A stretch of 36,623 nucleotides of DNA from a virus. The DNA is taken from positions 1 to 36,623 of IMG/VR virus record IMGVR_UViG_3300042883_000343. One strand, written 5' to 3'. Positions 9,892-15,843 of the stretch are shown here, one piece after another (position 1 is the first letter of the stretch; every line of letters begins with the position of its first letter). A program made the position numbers and the translations under genes. Below the pieces are notes generated by a model. That model made no database searches and was not told the DNA's origin. It saw nothing but the letters and a program-made list of their open reading frames with translations.

Positions 9892-10610
9892 GTCACTTTT
9901 TATACAATGAGAGATGTCCTAAATGCAGTGCCAATGGTGCTGATAAGAGTGGTAATAACCTAGCAGTTTATTCTGATACGCATAAGTATTGTTTTGCTTG
10001 TGGTTATCATGATAGAGGGGACATTGTAGAGAAATACAAGGATCGTTTAAACACAATAGTAGAAAAGAAATCTTTCATGTCATTCAACAAAGCTCAGTTT
10101 ATGGATGCTAAGGGAATGACCTACCTTAAAAAATATGGACTAACAAACGATGAAATCAATAAAAATTATTTTTGGGATAGTGATGGCTATTTGGTATTTG
10201 ATGGTGGTAGCTATCAAAACGCTAGAAACTTCACTGGATTAGGTGCTAAGTATATGACTAGGGGAGTTATTCGCAATAATGAACCCATTATGCAGAATAC
10301 GCAAAATGATAGTGTAATTATTGTAGAAGACGCAATTTCTGCTATAAAAGTTAGTAGAGTACTACCAAGTGTTCCAATACATAACTCAATTATACCCCTA
10401 GAACTCATTTTAAGGCTCTCTAAACGCTTTAAAAAACTTTTTGTATGGCTCGATAAGGATAAAAGTTTATCGGCTCTTAAACAAGCAGGAAATGCGAAAT
10501 TACTTTTTGATGAAGTAAGAACAATTTGGACTGATCTCGATCCAAAATGTTATTCAGAAACAGAGATTAAAAAATATTTAAATGTTATTGACATGGAGAA
10601 ACAAGTATGA
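9888..10610 (+). CDS. DNA primase, T7 gp4 N-terminal half
   Basis: This protein makes RNA primers for lagging-strand synthesis. A zinc-binding domain has C10-x-x-C13 and C35-x-x-C38 (CPKC, CFAC). A TOPRIM domain follows with VIIVEDAISA (catalytic Glu, about residue 146) and VWLDKDKS (paired Asp). I chose TTG at 9888, overlapping the preceding stop, because GGGGA lies about 9 nt upstream. The ATG at 9879 abuts the GGGGA and has no room for a ribosome site. In T7 this domain is fused to the helicase; here it is a separate 240-aa protein overlapping the helicase gene as ATGA. Confidence 0.88.
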   Translation: MSHFLYNERCPKCSANGADKSGNNLAVYSDTHKYCFACGYHDRGDIVEKYKDRLNTIVEKKSFMSFNKAQFMDAKGMTYLKKYGLTNDEINKNYFWDSDGYLVFDGGSYQNARNFTGLGAKYMTRGVIRNNEPIMQNTQNDSVIIVEDAISAIKVSRVLPSVPIHNSIIPLELILRLSKRFKKLFVWLDKDKSLSALKQAGNAKLLFDEVRTIWTDLDPKCYSETEIKKYLNVIDMEKQV

Positions 10611-11827
10611 TAGAATTAATTATTATTAAATATATATTAAATAATATAATATATAATAAATATATAAATAATATTATAATAACAAACAAAGAACTTGTCA
10701 AGCTTCTTTATTGTGTTAAATCTTTACAGGAATCTTCTGATAAAGATCAATACACCATTGACGACCTAGAACTAAAATTCTTCTCTGACTATCCATTCTT
10801 GAAAGATGTTGAAAAGGAAATGTTCAATACAATCTTCGACAAGCTTCGTGGATTGGAAGTTGATGACACTCGGATTGAGGAATATCTCGACAAACAACGA
10901 TCAGCAGTTATGGCTCGTGAAGTTGCAGAGATGGCTCTTGAAGTCACAGAGGGCAGAAAAGACTTTAACGAGATTCTTGACAAAATCTCTAAGATGGACA
11001 TTGACAGACCTAACGAAGAAGAGATTACATTCGTCACAGATGACCTAGAGGAACTCTACGAGTCTCAAGTGACTACCAAGGGACTTAGATGGCGTTTAAA
11101 CTGTCTCAATCAATCTTTGGGTAGTCTTAGACAAGGGGACTTTGGTTTCTTATTTGCTAGACCTGAGACTGGTAAGACAACATTCTTGGCTAGTGAAGTC
11201 ACACACATGGCTACACAAGCAGAAGGCAATATTCTTTGGTTCAACAATGAGGAACAGGGCAGTAAGGTTATGATGAGATGTATTCAAGCCTCACTTGGCT
11301 TGTCTCTACCTGAACTCTATCAAAACATCAAGGCTAACAAGGAACGATTTATTGAGAAGACACAACACAAGATTAAAATCTTTGACCAAGCCTCAATTAG
11401 CTACAAAGATGTCAATAAGATTTGTGAGCAGATTAAACCTAGCTTAATTATATTCGACCAGATAGACAAGATTAAAGGGTTTGAGCAAGACAGGAATGAT
11501 TTAATGCTAGGATCAATTTACCAATGGGCTAGAGAACTTGCTAAAGACTATGCACCAGTGATTGCAGTGTGTCAAGCTGACGGATCAGGTGAAGGAGTTA
11601 AGTGGCTTAACATGGGTAATGTTGCTAATGCTAAAACATCTAAACAAGCGGAAGCAGACTGGATACTAGGCATTGGTAAGACGAATGATGAGGGCTTGGA
11701 GTATATGCGTCACTTCTGTATCTCTAAGAACAAACTTGTAGGCGATAATGATTCAATCCCTGACATGAGACATGGCAAGTTTGATTGTGTTATTAAACCT
11801 GATGTTGCAAGATATGTAGATGTGTGA
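10607..11827 (+). CDS. Replicative DNA helicase, T7 gp4 C-terminal half (DnaB-like)
   Basis: The 406-aa RecA-fold helicase would unwind DNA at the fork as a hexameric ring. It has Walker A in FARPETGKTTFL (about residues 183-190), WFNNEEQ after it, and Walker B in LIIFDQIDKI. It is split from the primase with a 4-nt ATGA overlap. The first 25 or so codons lie in a pure A/T tract and give an odd Ile/Asn/Tyr-rich leader (IIIKYILNNIIYNKYINNII), so the true domain may begin near ELVKLLYC. That leader may be a consequence of a DNA element rather than selected protein. Confidence 0.9.
   Translation: MIELIIIKYILNNIIYNKYINNIIITNKELVKLLYCVKSLQESSDKDQYTIDDLELKFFSDYPFLKDVEKEMFNTIFDKLRGLEVDDTRIEEYLDKQRSAVMAREVAEMALEVTEGRKDFNEILDKISKMDIDRPNEEEITFVTDDLEELYESQVTTKGLRWRLNCLNQSLGSLRQGDFGFLFARPETGKTTFLASEVTHMATQAEGNILWFNNEEQGSKVMMRCIQASLGLSLPELYQNIKANKERFIEKTQHKIKIFDQASISYKDVNKICEQIKPSLIIFDQIDKIKGFEQDRNDLMLGSIYQWARELAKDYAPVIAVCQADGSGEGVKWLNMGNVANAKTSKQAEADWILGIGKTNDEGLEYMRHFCISKNKLVGDNDSIPDMRHGKFDCVIKPDVARYVDV
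10614..10682. other. 69-bp pure A/T tract inside the helicase start
   Basis: All bases from 10614 to 10682 are A or T, in a coding region whose surroundings are clearly mixed. The composition and TA/ATA/AAT texture match the intergenic tract at 4491-4562. It could be a second DNA-unwinding element or an expanded low-complexity insertion tolerated at the helicase N-terminus. Confidence 0.45.
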
Positions 11828-11839
11828 TAGAATATAGAT

Positions 11840-12997
11840 ATGAACACAATAATCTTAGATGTAGAAACAACAATCCATGCTAATGGAAACCCATTCTCTG
11901 AAAGGAATAAACTTTGCTATGTCGGACTTCATCATAATAATGTTTCTAATATATTTGACATTGAATATAGTGGAAATCCGTACAGGGAAAAACTTAACGC
12001 TATACAGAATGTGCTTGACAATGACGCTATTCTTGTTGGCTTTAACATTAAGTTTGACTTGCATTGGATAAGAAAATATGGAATTAGTTTTGTGGATAAG
12101 CGTATTTGGGATTGTCAGCTGGTACATTTTATACTCACTAACCAACAGAATCCCTACCCTTCACTTAATGGTGTCGCTGAGTACTATGGTTTGGGTAGTA
12201 AGCTTGATGTTGTTGCTACTGAGTATTGGGGGAATGGGATAGACACACCTGATGTCCCTAAAGACATTCTTGAAGACTATTTGAAACAAGATTTGCTTCT
12301 TACAGAGGCAGTGTTTAAACGGCAGTATGAGGAAGTAATGGCTCTACCACAAGAAAGACAACGATTGATTAGTTTGCACAATCAGGACTTACTTGTTTTA
12401 GAAGAGATGGAGTATAATGGAATTTTATTTGATGAAGATAGGAGTTTAGAACTTGGTGCCTTATTGGAAAAGGAAGTCGGATTACTTGATGAAGAATTGG
12501 CTAAAACTTTTAATATTGATGGTTTTAACTTTAATAGCAAAGATCACCTCAGTTGTCTTTTGTATGGTGGAAGGATTACTATACCCAAGAAAGAAGTTAT
12601 CGGAGTTTATAAAACTGGCGAGAGAAAAGGGCAAGTAAAAGAAGGGTGGAAAGATCACACCTATGATATGCCTAGATTAATTGAGCCACTAAAAGGGAGT
12701 GAATTAAAAAAAGATGGGTACTATAGCACAGATGAACAAACGCTTAGAAGCCTTAGGGGCACAGGAGTTTCTAAAGGAATTATTCAACTTATCCTTAAAA
12801 GGAGTGGACTTGAAAAGCGTAGAGGGACTTACTATTCAGGACTCCCTGAACTCAGAGAAAATCAAGGTTGGAGTAAAGGTTCGCTACATGGACAACTCAA
12901 CCAGTGCGTTGCTAGAACTGGTCGCCTTAGTTCCTCAAAGCCGAATCTACAAAATTTTGATGGAGAAATAAAAGAACTATTTTATTCACGATACTAG
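11840..12997 (+). CDS. DNA polymerase A, N-terminal part (exonuclease and thumb)
   Basis: This 385-aa piece carries the DEDD 3'-5' proofreading exonuclease (ILDVETT at residues 6-12, then VGFNIKFDLHWI and a C-terminal YLKQDLLLTEAVF) and the first part of the polymerase domain. It ends with QCVARTGRLSSSKPNLQNF and then FYSRY, the point just before the catalytic palm Asp. The rest of the polymerase is a separate gene 527 bp downstream. The two must assemble to give an active enzyme. The stop is clean and the next gene has its own ribosome site. Confidence 0.9.
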   Translation: MNTIILDVETTIHANGNPFSERNKLCYVGLHHNNVSNIFDIEYSGNPYREKLNAIQNVLDNDAILVGFNIKFDLHWIRKYGISFVDKRIWDCQLVHFILTNQQNPYPSLNGVAEYYGLGSKLDVVATEYWGNGIDTPDVPKDILEDYLKQDLLLTEAVFKRQYEEVMALPQERQRLISLHNQDLLVLEEMEYNGILFDEDRSLELGALLEKEVGLLDEELAKTFNIDGFNFNSKDHLSCLLYGGRITIPKKEVIGVYKTGERKGQVKEGWKDHTYDMPRLIEPLKGSELKKDGYYSTDEQTLRSLRGTGVSKGIIQLILKRSGLEKRRGTYYSGLPELRENQGWSKGSLHGQLNQCVARTGRLSSSKPNLQNFDGEIKELFYSRY

Positions 12998-13006
12998 GAG
13001 AAAATT

Positions 13007-13330
13007 ATGAAGAAGAAAGATAGGATTAAACTATGTCTTCATTATGAAGAACTTCATGATGCTGTTAATAAAATAGCCCATGCTGTAATATTTAGACCTA
13101 AAACTCAAAAAGAGTATGATGAGATTTATGATAAAATACATAGTAGGGTTGACAAAGTAAAAGAAACCATAGATGATATGTTTGATGCTTTTGAGTTAGA
13201 AGAAACTTATTTTAAAGAAGTTTGTGACGAGCATATAGGGTGCTATTCTTACCCTAACTGTGATTTAAGTCCTACAGGTTGCACTGTAATGTATGGAAGT
13301 GATGCAGAACAATTTGGACATAAAGATTAA
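13007..13330 (+). CDS. Small phage protein inserted in the polymerase split, 107 aa
   Basis: The N-terminal two-thirds is helical and charged (VDKVKETIDDMFDAFELEE). The C-terminus has clustered cysteines in GCYSYPNCDLSPTGC and ends GHKD, which may bind zinc. The Y-P-N-C-D-L-x-P-x-G-C pattern is familiar from small phage hypotheticals. It is one of two genes separating the polymerase halves. It shows no homing-endonuclease or intein motif. AGGAG precedes the start. Confidence 0.65.
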   Translation: MKKKDRIKLCLHYEELHDAVNKIAHAVIFRPKTQKEYDEIYDKIHSRVDKVKETIDDMFDAFELEETYFKEVCDEHIGCYSYPNCDLSPTGCTVMYGSDAEQFGHKD

Positions 13331-13345
13331 TTAAAGGAGAAACTT

Positions 13346-13531
13346 ATGAATGACGAAATAGACTACGACTACGATGTACCTGATATGAACCCTTCAGAAG
13401 ATGAAGCATACTTCTATCATACTCTTGGAGACTTTGAGAGTTATGTTAAAGACCTAGGGGCTAAGTATGTTTTAACAGAGATGAACGAAGATGTTAGAAA
13501 GCTTTTAGAAGAAGCGTTTAAACAATGCTAA
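13346..13531 (+). CDS. Small acidic protein inserted in the polymerase split, 61 aa
   Basis: The N-terminus is strikingly acidic and Tyr-rich (MNDEIDYDYDVPDMNPSEDE). A helical segment follows (FESYVKDLGAKYVLTEMNEDVRKLLEEAF). AAAGGAG lies upstream of the ATG. Its last codons overlap the start of the C-terminal polymerase gene by 7 nt, so the two are probably translated together. The family is not recognised; a role in joining or modulating the polymerase halves is speculation. Confidence 0.65.
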   Translation: MNDEIDYDYDVPDMNPSEDEAYFYHTLGDFESYVKDLGAKYVLTEMNEDVRKLLEEAFKQC

Positions 13532-14244
13532 TTCAGGGTGATGCCTCTGCCCTTGAGTGGCGATGTGCTGCCTTTTTAAGTAAGGATAAAGTAGCCTATG
13601 AAGAGATATGGAACAATGTCGATCAACACACTGATAATCAGAATCGCTTTGGTTTGCCTAGTCGTCTTATTGCTAAGACATTTGTGTTCAGACTTATTTA
13701 TGGAGGAAGTGCTTACTCCTACGCTAATGATCCAAACTTCGCTGAGGTAAGTAAAAGTGAAAAGTTTTGGCAAGGTGTCATTGATGAATTTTATAGCAAG
13801 TATAAAGGACTTCATAAGTGGCACATTAAACTTATGCAAGAAGCTACAACGACTAAAATGGTTAAACTTCCTACTGGTAGAATCTATCAGTTTGAACCTG
13901 AATTAAGACGAGGGGAGAAGGTTTTCCCTCGCACCACAATTCTTAACTATCCTGTTCAAGGACTTGGTGCAGACTTAATGACACTGGCAAGAGTATCTTT
14001 ATATAACCGAATGAGGAAATTAAATTATGAAAAGGCGAGACTTGTTAATACAGTTCATGATTCCATTATCATTGATTGTGATAGTGGTTTTACTGATACT
14101 TTAGCTAAGACAATGTTAGATGTATTTGAAGATGTTCCTAAGAACTTTCAGAAGATGTTTGGGACTGAGTTTGACCTCCCAATGAAGGCAGAAGTACAGG
14201 TTGGAAATAATTGGAAAGATATGGAAATTTGGGTTGACAAGTAA
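13525..14244 (+). CDS. DNA polymerase A, C-terminal part (palm and fingers)
   Basis: This 239-aa piece holds the catalytic core. Motif A is LIQGDASALEWR (catalytic Asp near residue 6), the O-helix motif B is RLIAKTFVFRLIYGG, and motif C is VNTVHDSIIID. The first residues continue directly from where the N-terminal piece ends, with only a few residues missing at the junction. No ribosome site stands out; the ATG overlaps the preceding stop, which suggests coupling. All key residues look intact, so a functional two-subunit polymerase is likely rather than a pseudogene. Confidence 0.9.
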   Translation: MLIQGDASALEWRCAAFLSKDKVAYEEIWNNVDQHTDNQNRFGLPSRLIAKTFVFRLIYGGSAYSYANDPNFAEVSKSEKFWQGVIDEFYSKYKGLHKWHIKLMQEATTTKMVKLPTGRIYQFEPELRRGEKVFPRTTILNYPVQGLGADLMTLARVSLYNRMRKLNYEKARLVNTVHDSIIIDCDSGFTDTLAKTMLDVFEDVPKNFQKMFGTEFDLPMKAEVQVGNNWKDMEIWVDK

Positions 14245-14304: not shown

Positions 14305-14799
14305 ATGATTATAGAAATTATTGATGTAGGTTCACCTGAGTCAGTGAAGACTGGTAAAGGACAATATCAGACATTACAAGTTAGTTTCAAGAATGAACAG
14401 GGGCAAGTACAAGGTAAGAAGCTTATGTCATTCAGCAATCCTACAGTGTTTAAAGACATTCAAGGGTATGCTAAAGGTGATCGTATAGATGTTCTTACTG
14501 TTAAAGAAGGTGATTACTGGCAGTGGAAAGCTATTGACAAAGAAGGTGAAGCTCCTCCAAGAGCAGAAGCCCCTAAGTCAACTGGTGGCGGTGGTAAGGT
14601 CATTGGTAGCAACTATGAGACAGCAGAAGAAAGAGCTAGACGACAAGTGTATATCATTCGTCAATCTTCTCTAGGTACTGCGGTGGAATTGTTAGGTCAA
14701 GGTGCATCAGTTGATGCTGTAGTAAAGACCGCAAAACAGTTCGAGGCTTATGTCTTCTCTAAAGAAGCTGAACTAGCAACGGAAGAATCTCCAGCATAA
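14305..14799 (+). CDS. Single-stranded DNA-binding protein (phage type)
   Basis: The 164-aa protein has an N-terminal beta-rich part (QYQTLQVSFKNEQGQVQGKK, GDRIDVLTVKEGDYWQW) fitting an OB-fold. A Pro/Gly linker follows, then SNYETAEERARRQVYIIRQS and a C-terminal acidic tail. I recognise this overall pattern from SSB-like proteins of marine podophages. It sits behind a strong internal promoter, as expected for a protein needed in large amounts, and before the gp6-like exonuclease. AAAGGAG precedes the ATG. Confidence 0.75.
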   Translation: MIIEIIDVGSPESVKTGKGQYQTLQVSFKNEQGQVQGKKLMSFSNPTVFKDIQGYAKGDRIDVLTVKEGDYWQWKAIDKEGEAPPRAEAPKSTGGGGKVIGSNYETAEERARRQVYIIRQSSLGTAVELLGQGASVDAVVKTAKQFEAYVFSKEAELATEESPA

Positions 14800-14810
14800 T
14801 GGAGGCTTTG

Positions 14811-15476
14811 ATGGATGGCGATATTTACGCATTTAGAGTAGCTTGTACTACCGAGAATGATAACGAAGCTATCGCTGTCTATCGTGTCAATGAGATGATT
14901 GAGAATACTCTAGCTGAGGTGGAAGCATCTGAGTATAAATTATTCTTGACATCTCCTGACAATTTCAGGAAGCACATCTATCCTGAATACAAGGCTAATC
15001 GTACTGCAACCAAACCTAAGCACCTACAATTCCTTCGAGACTATCTAGTAGAGAGTTGGCAAGGAACAGTTGCTGAAAAGATGGAAGCAGACGATTATCT
15101 TGGTATCAATCAAAATGAATCTAGCATCATCTGTTCTATAGATAAAGACTTGTTGCAAGTGCCTGGAAAGCACTACAACTTCGTTAAAAAAGAATTCTAT
15201 GAAGTAGATGAAGAAACTGGATTTAGAAACTTCTACACACAACTTCTCACAGGTGATACTTCTGATAACATAAAAGGTATAGCAGGTATTGGACCAGTTA
15301 AGGCTAAGAAAGCTTTGGCTGAGTCTTTCACTGAACAAGAAATGTTCTCTGTAGTTAGAGATATGTATAAGAATGATGAATGGATGATAATGAATGGAAG
15401 ATGTTTACACATTCTCAGATCATTAGACGATGATTGGACAAATCATTTTGAAAGGTTAGCACTTGGCGACAAATAA
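14811..15476 (+). CDS. 5'-3' exonuclease, T7 gp6 / FEN type
   Basis: This 221-aa PIN/FEN nuclease would remove RNA primers and degrade host DNA. Metal-binding acidic residues appear in the N-terminal DGD, in KMEADDYLG and in CSIDKDLLQVPG. PEYKANR marks the arch, and GDTSDNIKGIAGIGPVKAKK is the helix-hairpin-helix. I chose ATG at 14811 because GGAGG lies 5 nt upstream; the ATG at 14799 overlaps the preceding stop but has no nearby ribosome site. Confidence 0.9.
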   Translation: MDGDIYAFRVACTTENDNEAIAVYRVNEMIENTLAEVEASEYKLFLTSPDNFRKHIYPEYKANRTATKPKHLQFLRDYLVESWQGTVAEKMEADDYLGINQNESSIICSIDKDLLQVPGKHYNFVKKEFYEVDEETGFRNFYTQLLTGDTSDNIKGIAGIGPVKAKKALAESFTEQEMFSVVRDMYKNDEWMIMNGRCLHILRSLDDDWTNHFERLALGDK

Positions 15477-15843
15477 GGAATGGACTGAAGGTCGCTACAA
15501 ATCATTTATAACTTCTACCCTAAGGGGTGGATTTAGAAGGTACCCCCCAAAATATGAATCTCTTAAAGAAGCTCAAGTTGGTAAGAAAATTAACGACAAA
15601 TCTCAACGCTTGGCTATGCACTATGAATGTTGTGGATGCAAAGGGCATTTCCCTGCTAAGGAGGTTCAGGTGGATCACATACTTCCTGTGGTGTGCCCTA
15701 AGAAAGGATTCGAGTCGTGGGATATATTTATTGCACGGCTTTTTTGTTCATCGGATAATTTACAAGTACTCTGCAAAAGTTGCCATGACACCAAAACCAA
15801 AGCAGAAAGGGTAAAGCGTGTTAGTAAAAGGACTAAGACCTGA
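15463..15843 (+). CDS. HNH endonuclease
   Basis: The 126-aa protein starts at TTG (15463), with AAAGG 7 nt upstream, overlapping the exonuclease gene. A zinc-binding HNH motif is clear: YECCGCKGHF, then VQVDHILPV (catalytic His), then NLQVLCKSCHDTKTKAE. The basic N-terminus (YKSFITSTLRGGFRRYPP) could bind DNA. It sits inside the replication operon and may process replication intermediates in place of T7 endonuclease I, or could be a free-standing homing nuclease. I favour the first because of gene overlap on both sides. Confidence 0.85.
   Translation: MATNKEWTEGRYKSFITSTLRGGFRRYPPKYESLKEAQVGKKINDKSQRLAMHYECCGCKGHFPAKEVQVDHILPVVCPKKGFESWDIFIARLFCSSDNLQVLCKSCHDTKTKAERVKRVSKRTKT

Follow-up and report, generated by a model that had tools for sequence, protein, structure and literature searches.

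The window analysed here, which is the entire 36,623-base viral record, very probably encodes a genuine two-subunit family A replicative DNA polymerase of the MEP401 type. The gene would have been cut once, before the motif A strand, and left unrepaired in the clade as sampled, with the two subunits translated separately and associating with each other, and with replaceable cargo between their genes. The halves are separate ORFs, the split is conserved among relatives, some of which carry no insert at all, both halves are under selection, and their predicted folds are complementary. The split type itself has already been published; what is new is the comparative case for an enzyme made from two genes, how widely the split occurs, the second fission of independent origin and a link to endonucleases.

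Results

Organization of the polymerase locus

The features of the locus are summarized in Table 1. The N piece terminates in TGRLSSSKPNLQNFDGEIKELFYSRY followed by a stop codon (that is, ...FYSRY), and the C piece begins with MLIQGDASALEWR. The 527 nt between them hold two small genes, each with its own ribosome site as the first-pass annotation had described: TAGGAG precedes the 107-aa ORF and AAAGGAG the 61-aa ORF. The order is N stop, TAGGAG, 107-aa gene, AAAGGAG, 61-aa gene and an overlapping C start, the stop of the 61-aa gene sharing the string ATGCTAA with the start of the C piece. The C piece is without a strong ribosome site of its own and, on account of this overlap, looks translationally coupled to the 61-aa gene.

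Table 1. Coordinates of the split polymerase and neighbouring genes in the window
Feature	Position	Strand	Description and basis
DnaB-like replicative helicase	10607-11827	+	Directly upstream, replication module context; Pfam
N-terminal polymerase subunit, 385 aa	11840-12997	+	3'-5' exonuclease, thumb, first palm part; ORF call, Pfam, relative alignments
Break point, N-half end (SRY-stop)	12980-12997	+	Junction alignment
107-aa ORF	13007-13330	+	Function unassigned, nearly window-unique, cargo at break; ORF call, tblastn
61-aa acidic protein	13346-13531	+	Family common in type A junctions; ORF call, clustering
C-terminal polymerase subunit, 239 aa	13525-14244	+	Motif A strand, fingers, remaining palm with motifs B and C
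5'-3' exonuclease	14799-15476	+	Downstream, separate gene; Pfam

Profile searches also place a B12-type ribonucleotide reductase near the split polymerase. The N-terminus of the helicase (10607-10690) is AT-rich, repeat-like and rich in Ile, Asn and Tyr, and the real start may be further downstream. An HNH-domain protein (15463-15843) overlaps the end of the 5'-3' exonuclease; it is probably the endonuclease conserved in MEP401-type phages, and not a mobile element.

No DNA-level relatives of the first 25 kb of the window were found among 50,697 phage records. The top tblastn matches in these records were Methylophilales phages MEP402 and MEP401, two Manatee Spring phages and Alcaligenes phage vB_Af_QDWS535 (OK172329), and the window is a relative of the OM43 phages MEP401 and MEP402. 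All five are annotated as split (four from their records, MEP401 according to excerpts of PMC10580990). The break and the gene order are shared with MEP402, at 55% identity for the N half and 59% for the C half. As in the window, a small ORF belonging to the 61-aa family separates the halves in the MEP401/MEP402 polymerase, whereas the 107-aa gene is an addition of the window. QDWS535 has the same break but no insert, and its stop and start overlap in TAATG. The excerpts of PMC10580990 report a split polymerase in MEP401, MEP402 and most group I metagenomic genomes, where an intron was suspected and the question left open. Among titles and abstract openings, drawn mostly from journals without subscription, no paper was found that settles whether MEP401-type phages have an intron or a two-chain enzyme.

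The two pieces form complementary parts of one family A polymerase

The Pfam model DNA_pol_A (PF00476) matches both pieces above the gathering score (N piece, 5.8e-17, profile positions 50-132; C piece, 1.3e-27, profile positions 154-381), and a weak match to a 3'-5' exonuclease domain is present in the N piece. In the alignment of relatives, D7/E9, D73 and D151 of the N half and D6/E11, R47/K51 and H178-D179 of the C half are invariant or nearly so; we take these to be Exo I-III and motifs A, B and C, respectively. The catalytic motifs thus appear to be intact, as had been proposed. The break lies 5 residues before the motif A Asp, in agreement with the initial description of a split just before the palm Asp. 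The junction alignment places it in the turn before the motif A strand, a segment that reads SRF-DGG-K in the intact polymerase of HMO-2011.

AlphaFold2 models were obtained with a mean pLDDT of 86.7 for the N half, in which residues 357-369 fall under 50, and a pLDDT of 93.8 with pTM 0.89 for the C half modelled alone. Superposition with VIA-align places the N model on residues 313-642 of Bst Pol I (Z about 17.5, rmsd 2.8-3) and the C model on residues 648-876 of the same chains (Z 24, rmsd 2.1). NrnC-type exonucleases rank slightly above polymerases for the N-half model, which is expected from its exonuclease domain. The predicted folds of the halves are complementary on one Bst chain with about five residues between them, so that the early estimate of only a few missing residues holds. 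NG86 estimates of dN/dS between the window and relatives were 0.09-0.24 for the N half and 0.01-0.17 for the C half where computable; these are crude figures, several pairs being saturated at synonymous sites, including the one that gave the lowest value, and some pairs having no value. Judged by these ratios, both halves are under purifying selection.

The break is conserved across relatives with and without inserts

Relatives were retrieved from IMG/VR as the best 80 of 363, the best 80 of 520 and the best 80 of 361 candidates, plus 41 loci. We define type A (MEP401-type) by two ORFs whose break falls between SR(Y/F) and the motif A strand, and by monophyly with MEP402; the window falls within it both by break position in the junction alignment and by its clade with MEP402 in the tree. 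A first survey pass covered 94 distinct junctions. The combined set comprised 137 loci with both halves, reduced to 127 by removing 10 ICP2-type or intact reference phages and to 125 by removing repeats.

This comparison of polA loci, which the first-pass annotation had suggested, returned an intact polymerase gene in 0 of the 125 distinct type A junctions among the best-ranked relatives retrieved, a sample (the best 80 of each candidate list) that a rare intact member could escape. The halves overlap or abut (gap of at most 1 nt) in 55 junctions, and the others have gaps of 2-60 nt (4 junctions), 61-1000 nt (61) and more than 1000 nt (5). Where there is an insert, it consists of 26-3598 nt of unrelated genes. 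With the seven lesion loci described below omitted, the C half is in phase 1 relative to the N half in 51 junctions, phase 2 in 42 and phase 0 in 25. The proposal of a two-subunit polymerase is well supported by these counts of intact and insert-free junctions, by the varying frame relation and by the purifying selection on both halves.

A sequencing or assembly error, or a polymerase in decay, is of practically negligible probability as an explanation. Seven loci do carry further frame lesions, but the break recurs in 125 distinct junctions, including the isolate genomes MEP402 and QDWS535, and is therefore not a product of chance or misassembly; the selection on both halves likewise opposes decay. 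The concern that unrelated fragments had been joined can be set aside on the same grounds.

It is also very improbable that the 527-nt gap is a self-splicing intron, or the remnant of one, that carries ORFs and is excised to give a single polymerase mRNA. Group I introns do occur in phage DNA polymerase genes, an intron was raised for MEP401 and MEP402 by the authors of PMC10580990 (in the excerpts), and RefSeq joins the pieces of the ICP2 polymerase as one CDS around the HNH gene between them. The 55 insert-free relatives, however, have nothing to splice out, and an intron cannot explain them. The frame relation of the halves differs among relatives, inserts start and end as ordinary coupled genes, and exact removal of the gap would still leave about five residues missing. 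Rfam gave no match at the gathering score on the whole window, and hence recognised no group I intron core in the gap, although a divergent intron in the window's own insert could lie below its sensitivity. On the junction, with E up to 10, it returned three chance-level matches, none of them intron-like, and on 12 related loci nothing but a tRNA in L003. Splice joins of the upstream and downstream copies of the C-half start in two endonuclease-bearing loci (L146 and L222, by eye) did not restore the polymerase frame. The insert-free relatives refute RNA splicing as a general explanation; for the window itself, these comparisons make splicing very unlikely.

A junction with a 17-nt overlap and constant phase is found in 37 of the 125, and could conceivably mean that programmed frameshifting or bypassing connects the halves, in the overlapping class at least. 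We regard this as extremely improbable, and a programmed frameshift in that class was rejected, as other classes are in other phases, with up to 3.6 kb of genes between the halves, and the mixture of phases allows no common frameshift. The C half, moreover, retains its own start codon. In the insert-free overlap class its ATG lies within the SRY-A codons and is preceded by GGGAG in the G-S codons, so that a ribosome site is embedded in the coding sequence of the N half. A Shine-Dalgarno-like word is found upstream in 54 of 68 junctions with ATG at the Y codon versus 17 of 57 without it (Fisher 2.8e-8, a statistic that ignores the relatedness of loci). In junctions with an insert, the first insert ORF often starts where the C-half ATG sits in the insert-free class.

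In 16 relatives whose C halves reach at least 90% identity, the halves are separated by anything from 179 to 876 nt. The spacing from the C half to the next gene varies in the relatives of the window as well (59-673 nt), and the N/C junction as sole hotspot is thus unsupported. Between the helicase and the N half, L011 and L023 have a distance other than 12 nt.

Small proteins between the halves

Across all retrieved loci, the window's own record aside, the 107-aa ORF has one other tblastn match (L269, 40% identity), which is also next to the end of the N half. It has no Pfam or NCBIfam match, and PHROG 154 is hit only at E 0.009. The 61-aa protein has no Pfam, PHROG or NCBIfam match; its family accounts for 26 of the 70 insert ORFs in one single-linkage cluster, the others comprising two families of 14 and 7 and smaller groups. 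Judged from these distributions, the 61-aa family is commoner than the 107-aa protein, yet dispensable in the clade.

The first-pass annotation had proposed that the inserted proteins help assembly, which is not supported by the survey. The 107-aa ORF was rejected as a conserved subunit, and its near-uniqueness to the window argues that it is not an assembly factor. In its broader form, the proposal that the small intervening proteins, and the 61-aa family in particular, serve the polymerase as structural or assembly subunits seems improbable. The 61-aa family does recur beside the C half, and overlaps its start in the window and nearest relatives, but many relatives have no insert and other junctions are occupied by a methyltransferase, an R67-type DHFR (L003) or endonucleases. 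In a Manatee Spring phage (L002:2403-6000), the polymerase halves are held apart by 3.6 kb that include genes for a C5 cytosine methyltransferase and a stomatin-like protein.

Homing endonucleases and frame lesions at the junction

HNH or endonuclease VII genes are found in the type A junctions of L146, L170, L222, L291, L285 and L059, and endonuclease remnants in those of L129 and L223 (the latter by eye), giving eight endonuclease-bearing loci (two as remnants) listed by hand. In L146, L129, L170, L222 and L291, inspection by eye showed the C-half start to be present twice: upstream of the endonuclease as a truncated copy, and downstream of it as a copy that is coded differently and has a new start.

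The C half is frame-broken a few codons past the motif A Asp in L146 (3697-3770), L129 (7415-7480), L170 (3010-3080), L222 (1957-2000), L223 (C0 2980), L291 (2968-3010) and L003 (5056-5100). Such a lesion is present in 6 of the 8 endonuclease loci versus 1 of the 117 others (Fisher p 4e-8, which overstates the association, as the lesions amount to about four independent events). The lesions are of four different kinds, being one base short in L129, L146 and L170, a stop with a frame change in L222 and L223, an in-frame TAG in L291 and one base extra in L003, and may represent recoding, a scar or error. L285 and L059 carry an endonuclease without a lesion, which counts against a strict rule linking the two. 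No second copy of the C half was found in the seven lesion records, several of which are fragments. Proteins related to the HNH protein of L146 are encoded close to polA-like ORFs in further viral contigs (L180, L182, L188, L193-L197, L201, L214, L215, L171 and L172), and in L172 the endonuclease is between two polymerase fragments.

The window itself has neither a lesion nor a junction endonuclease recognised by Pfam, PHROG or NCBIfam, consistent with the original remark that the gap holds no intein or homing motif.

An independent fission in ICP2-type phages

Vibrio phage ICP2 and its relatives (Zobellviridae) also encode a family A polymerase in two genes divided near motif A. Their break follows LQNISN, with a restart at MSDIKRC, about 17 residues upstream of that in the window, and their junctions hold variable or no cargo, including the HNH gene of ICP2. 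A tree built from 42 polymerases recovers type A (23 rows) as one clade at 100/100, and likewise the ICP2 type (4 rows). The ICP2 type is joined by five intact enzymes at 100/99; with several long reference branches in the tree, deep placements are unsure. Since the ICP2 type groups with intact enzymes apart from the type A clade, at least two fissions are needed. The second is represented by the vibriophage loci L150, L151, L152 and L157. In L151 and L157 the halves share a frame with a stop between them, and they were assigned as split from junction reading, annotation and alignments. Three other Zobellviridae, SIO1, PA11 and CVT22, have an intact polymerase.

Discussion

We envisage that a single ancestral polymerase gene was cut once, in a turn on the protein surface immediately ahead of the motif A strand, and that the break was never mended in the type A clade as sampled. 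The N subunit (exonuclease, thumb and first palm strands) and the C subunit (motif A, fingers and motifs B and C) would be made from neighbouring coupled genes and would have to associate non-covalently; both association and activity are what we infer from the comparisons above. Contact with the C subunit probably orders the last 28 or so residues of the N subunit. The genes between the halves would be replaceable cargo, and the break a tolerated insertion site visited by HNH and endonuclease VII genes.

Split phage enzymes are known to work. In excerpts of PMC2988022, gp43A and gp43B of Aeromonas phage 25, likewise a split phage replicative polymerase, co-purify as active subunits, although this is a family B enzyme of a T4-like phage. 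Aeh1 NrdA (mobE) and T4 genes 39/60 (mobA) are essential genes that were split by free-standing homing endonucleases and are still functional (PMC2988022, PMC5009743; excerpts). These are enzymes other than polymerase, and the window retains no endonuclease at the break.

The first-pass annotation had offered a relic of an intron or of a homing event, and of these the homing part is plausible. HNH and endonuclease VII genes in eight type A junctions (two as remnants) and in ICP2 make a homing origin of the split likely on sequence evidence, and we infer homing as its first cause; the window carries no such gene, and the ancestral event is not seen. In T4, a homing endonuclease split gene 39 to give gene 60, where the bypassed insert protects the site, and in 'stop-hops' matched codons flank a stop (PMC5009743, PMC2988022; excerpts). 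The endonuclease-linked lesions after motif A recall T4 gene 60. It is possible, if on balance unlikely, that HNH cassettes repeatedly insert in the motif A region of phage polA, where they split the gene and supply a recoded C-half start. Several cassettes would leave a frame-breaking scar after the catalytic Asp that protects from re-cutting, the ribosome would slip or hop (for example at CTT TAG CTA in L291), and the split in the window would be an old product that has lost its endonuclease. If true, a replicative polymerase would harbour a whole family of small systems resembling T4 gene 60. Both homing-driven fission and recoding can be tested directly on the endonuclease-linked frame lesions.

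For annotation, polA in these phages should be entered as two genes where it is now called as joined or 'fragmented'. The choice between an intron and a two-chain enzyme in MEP401-type phages, left open in print, is answered here by comparison. In the type A polymerases, a family A enzyme has been divided naturally within the palm and has long stayed so. ICP2-type phages add a second and independent case about 17 residues away, and the two natural fissions together provide two evolutionarily tested sites for split-polymerase engineering.
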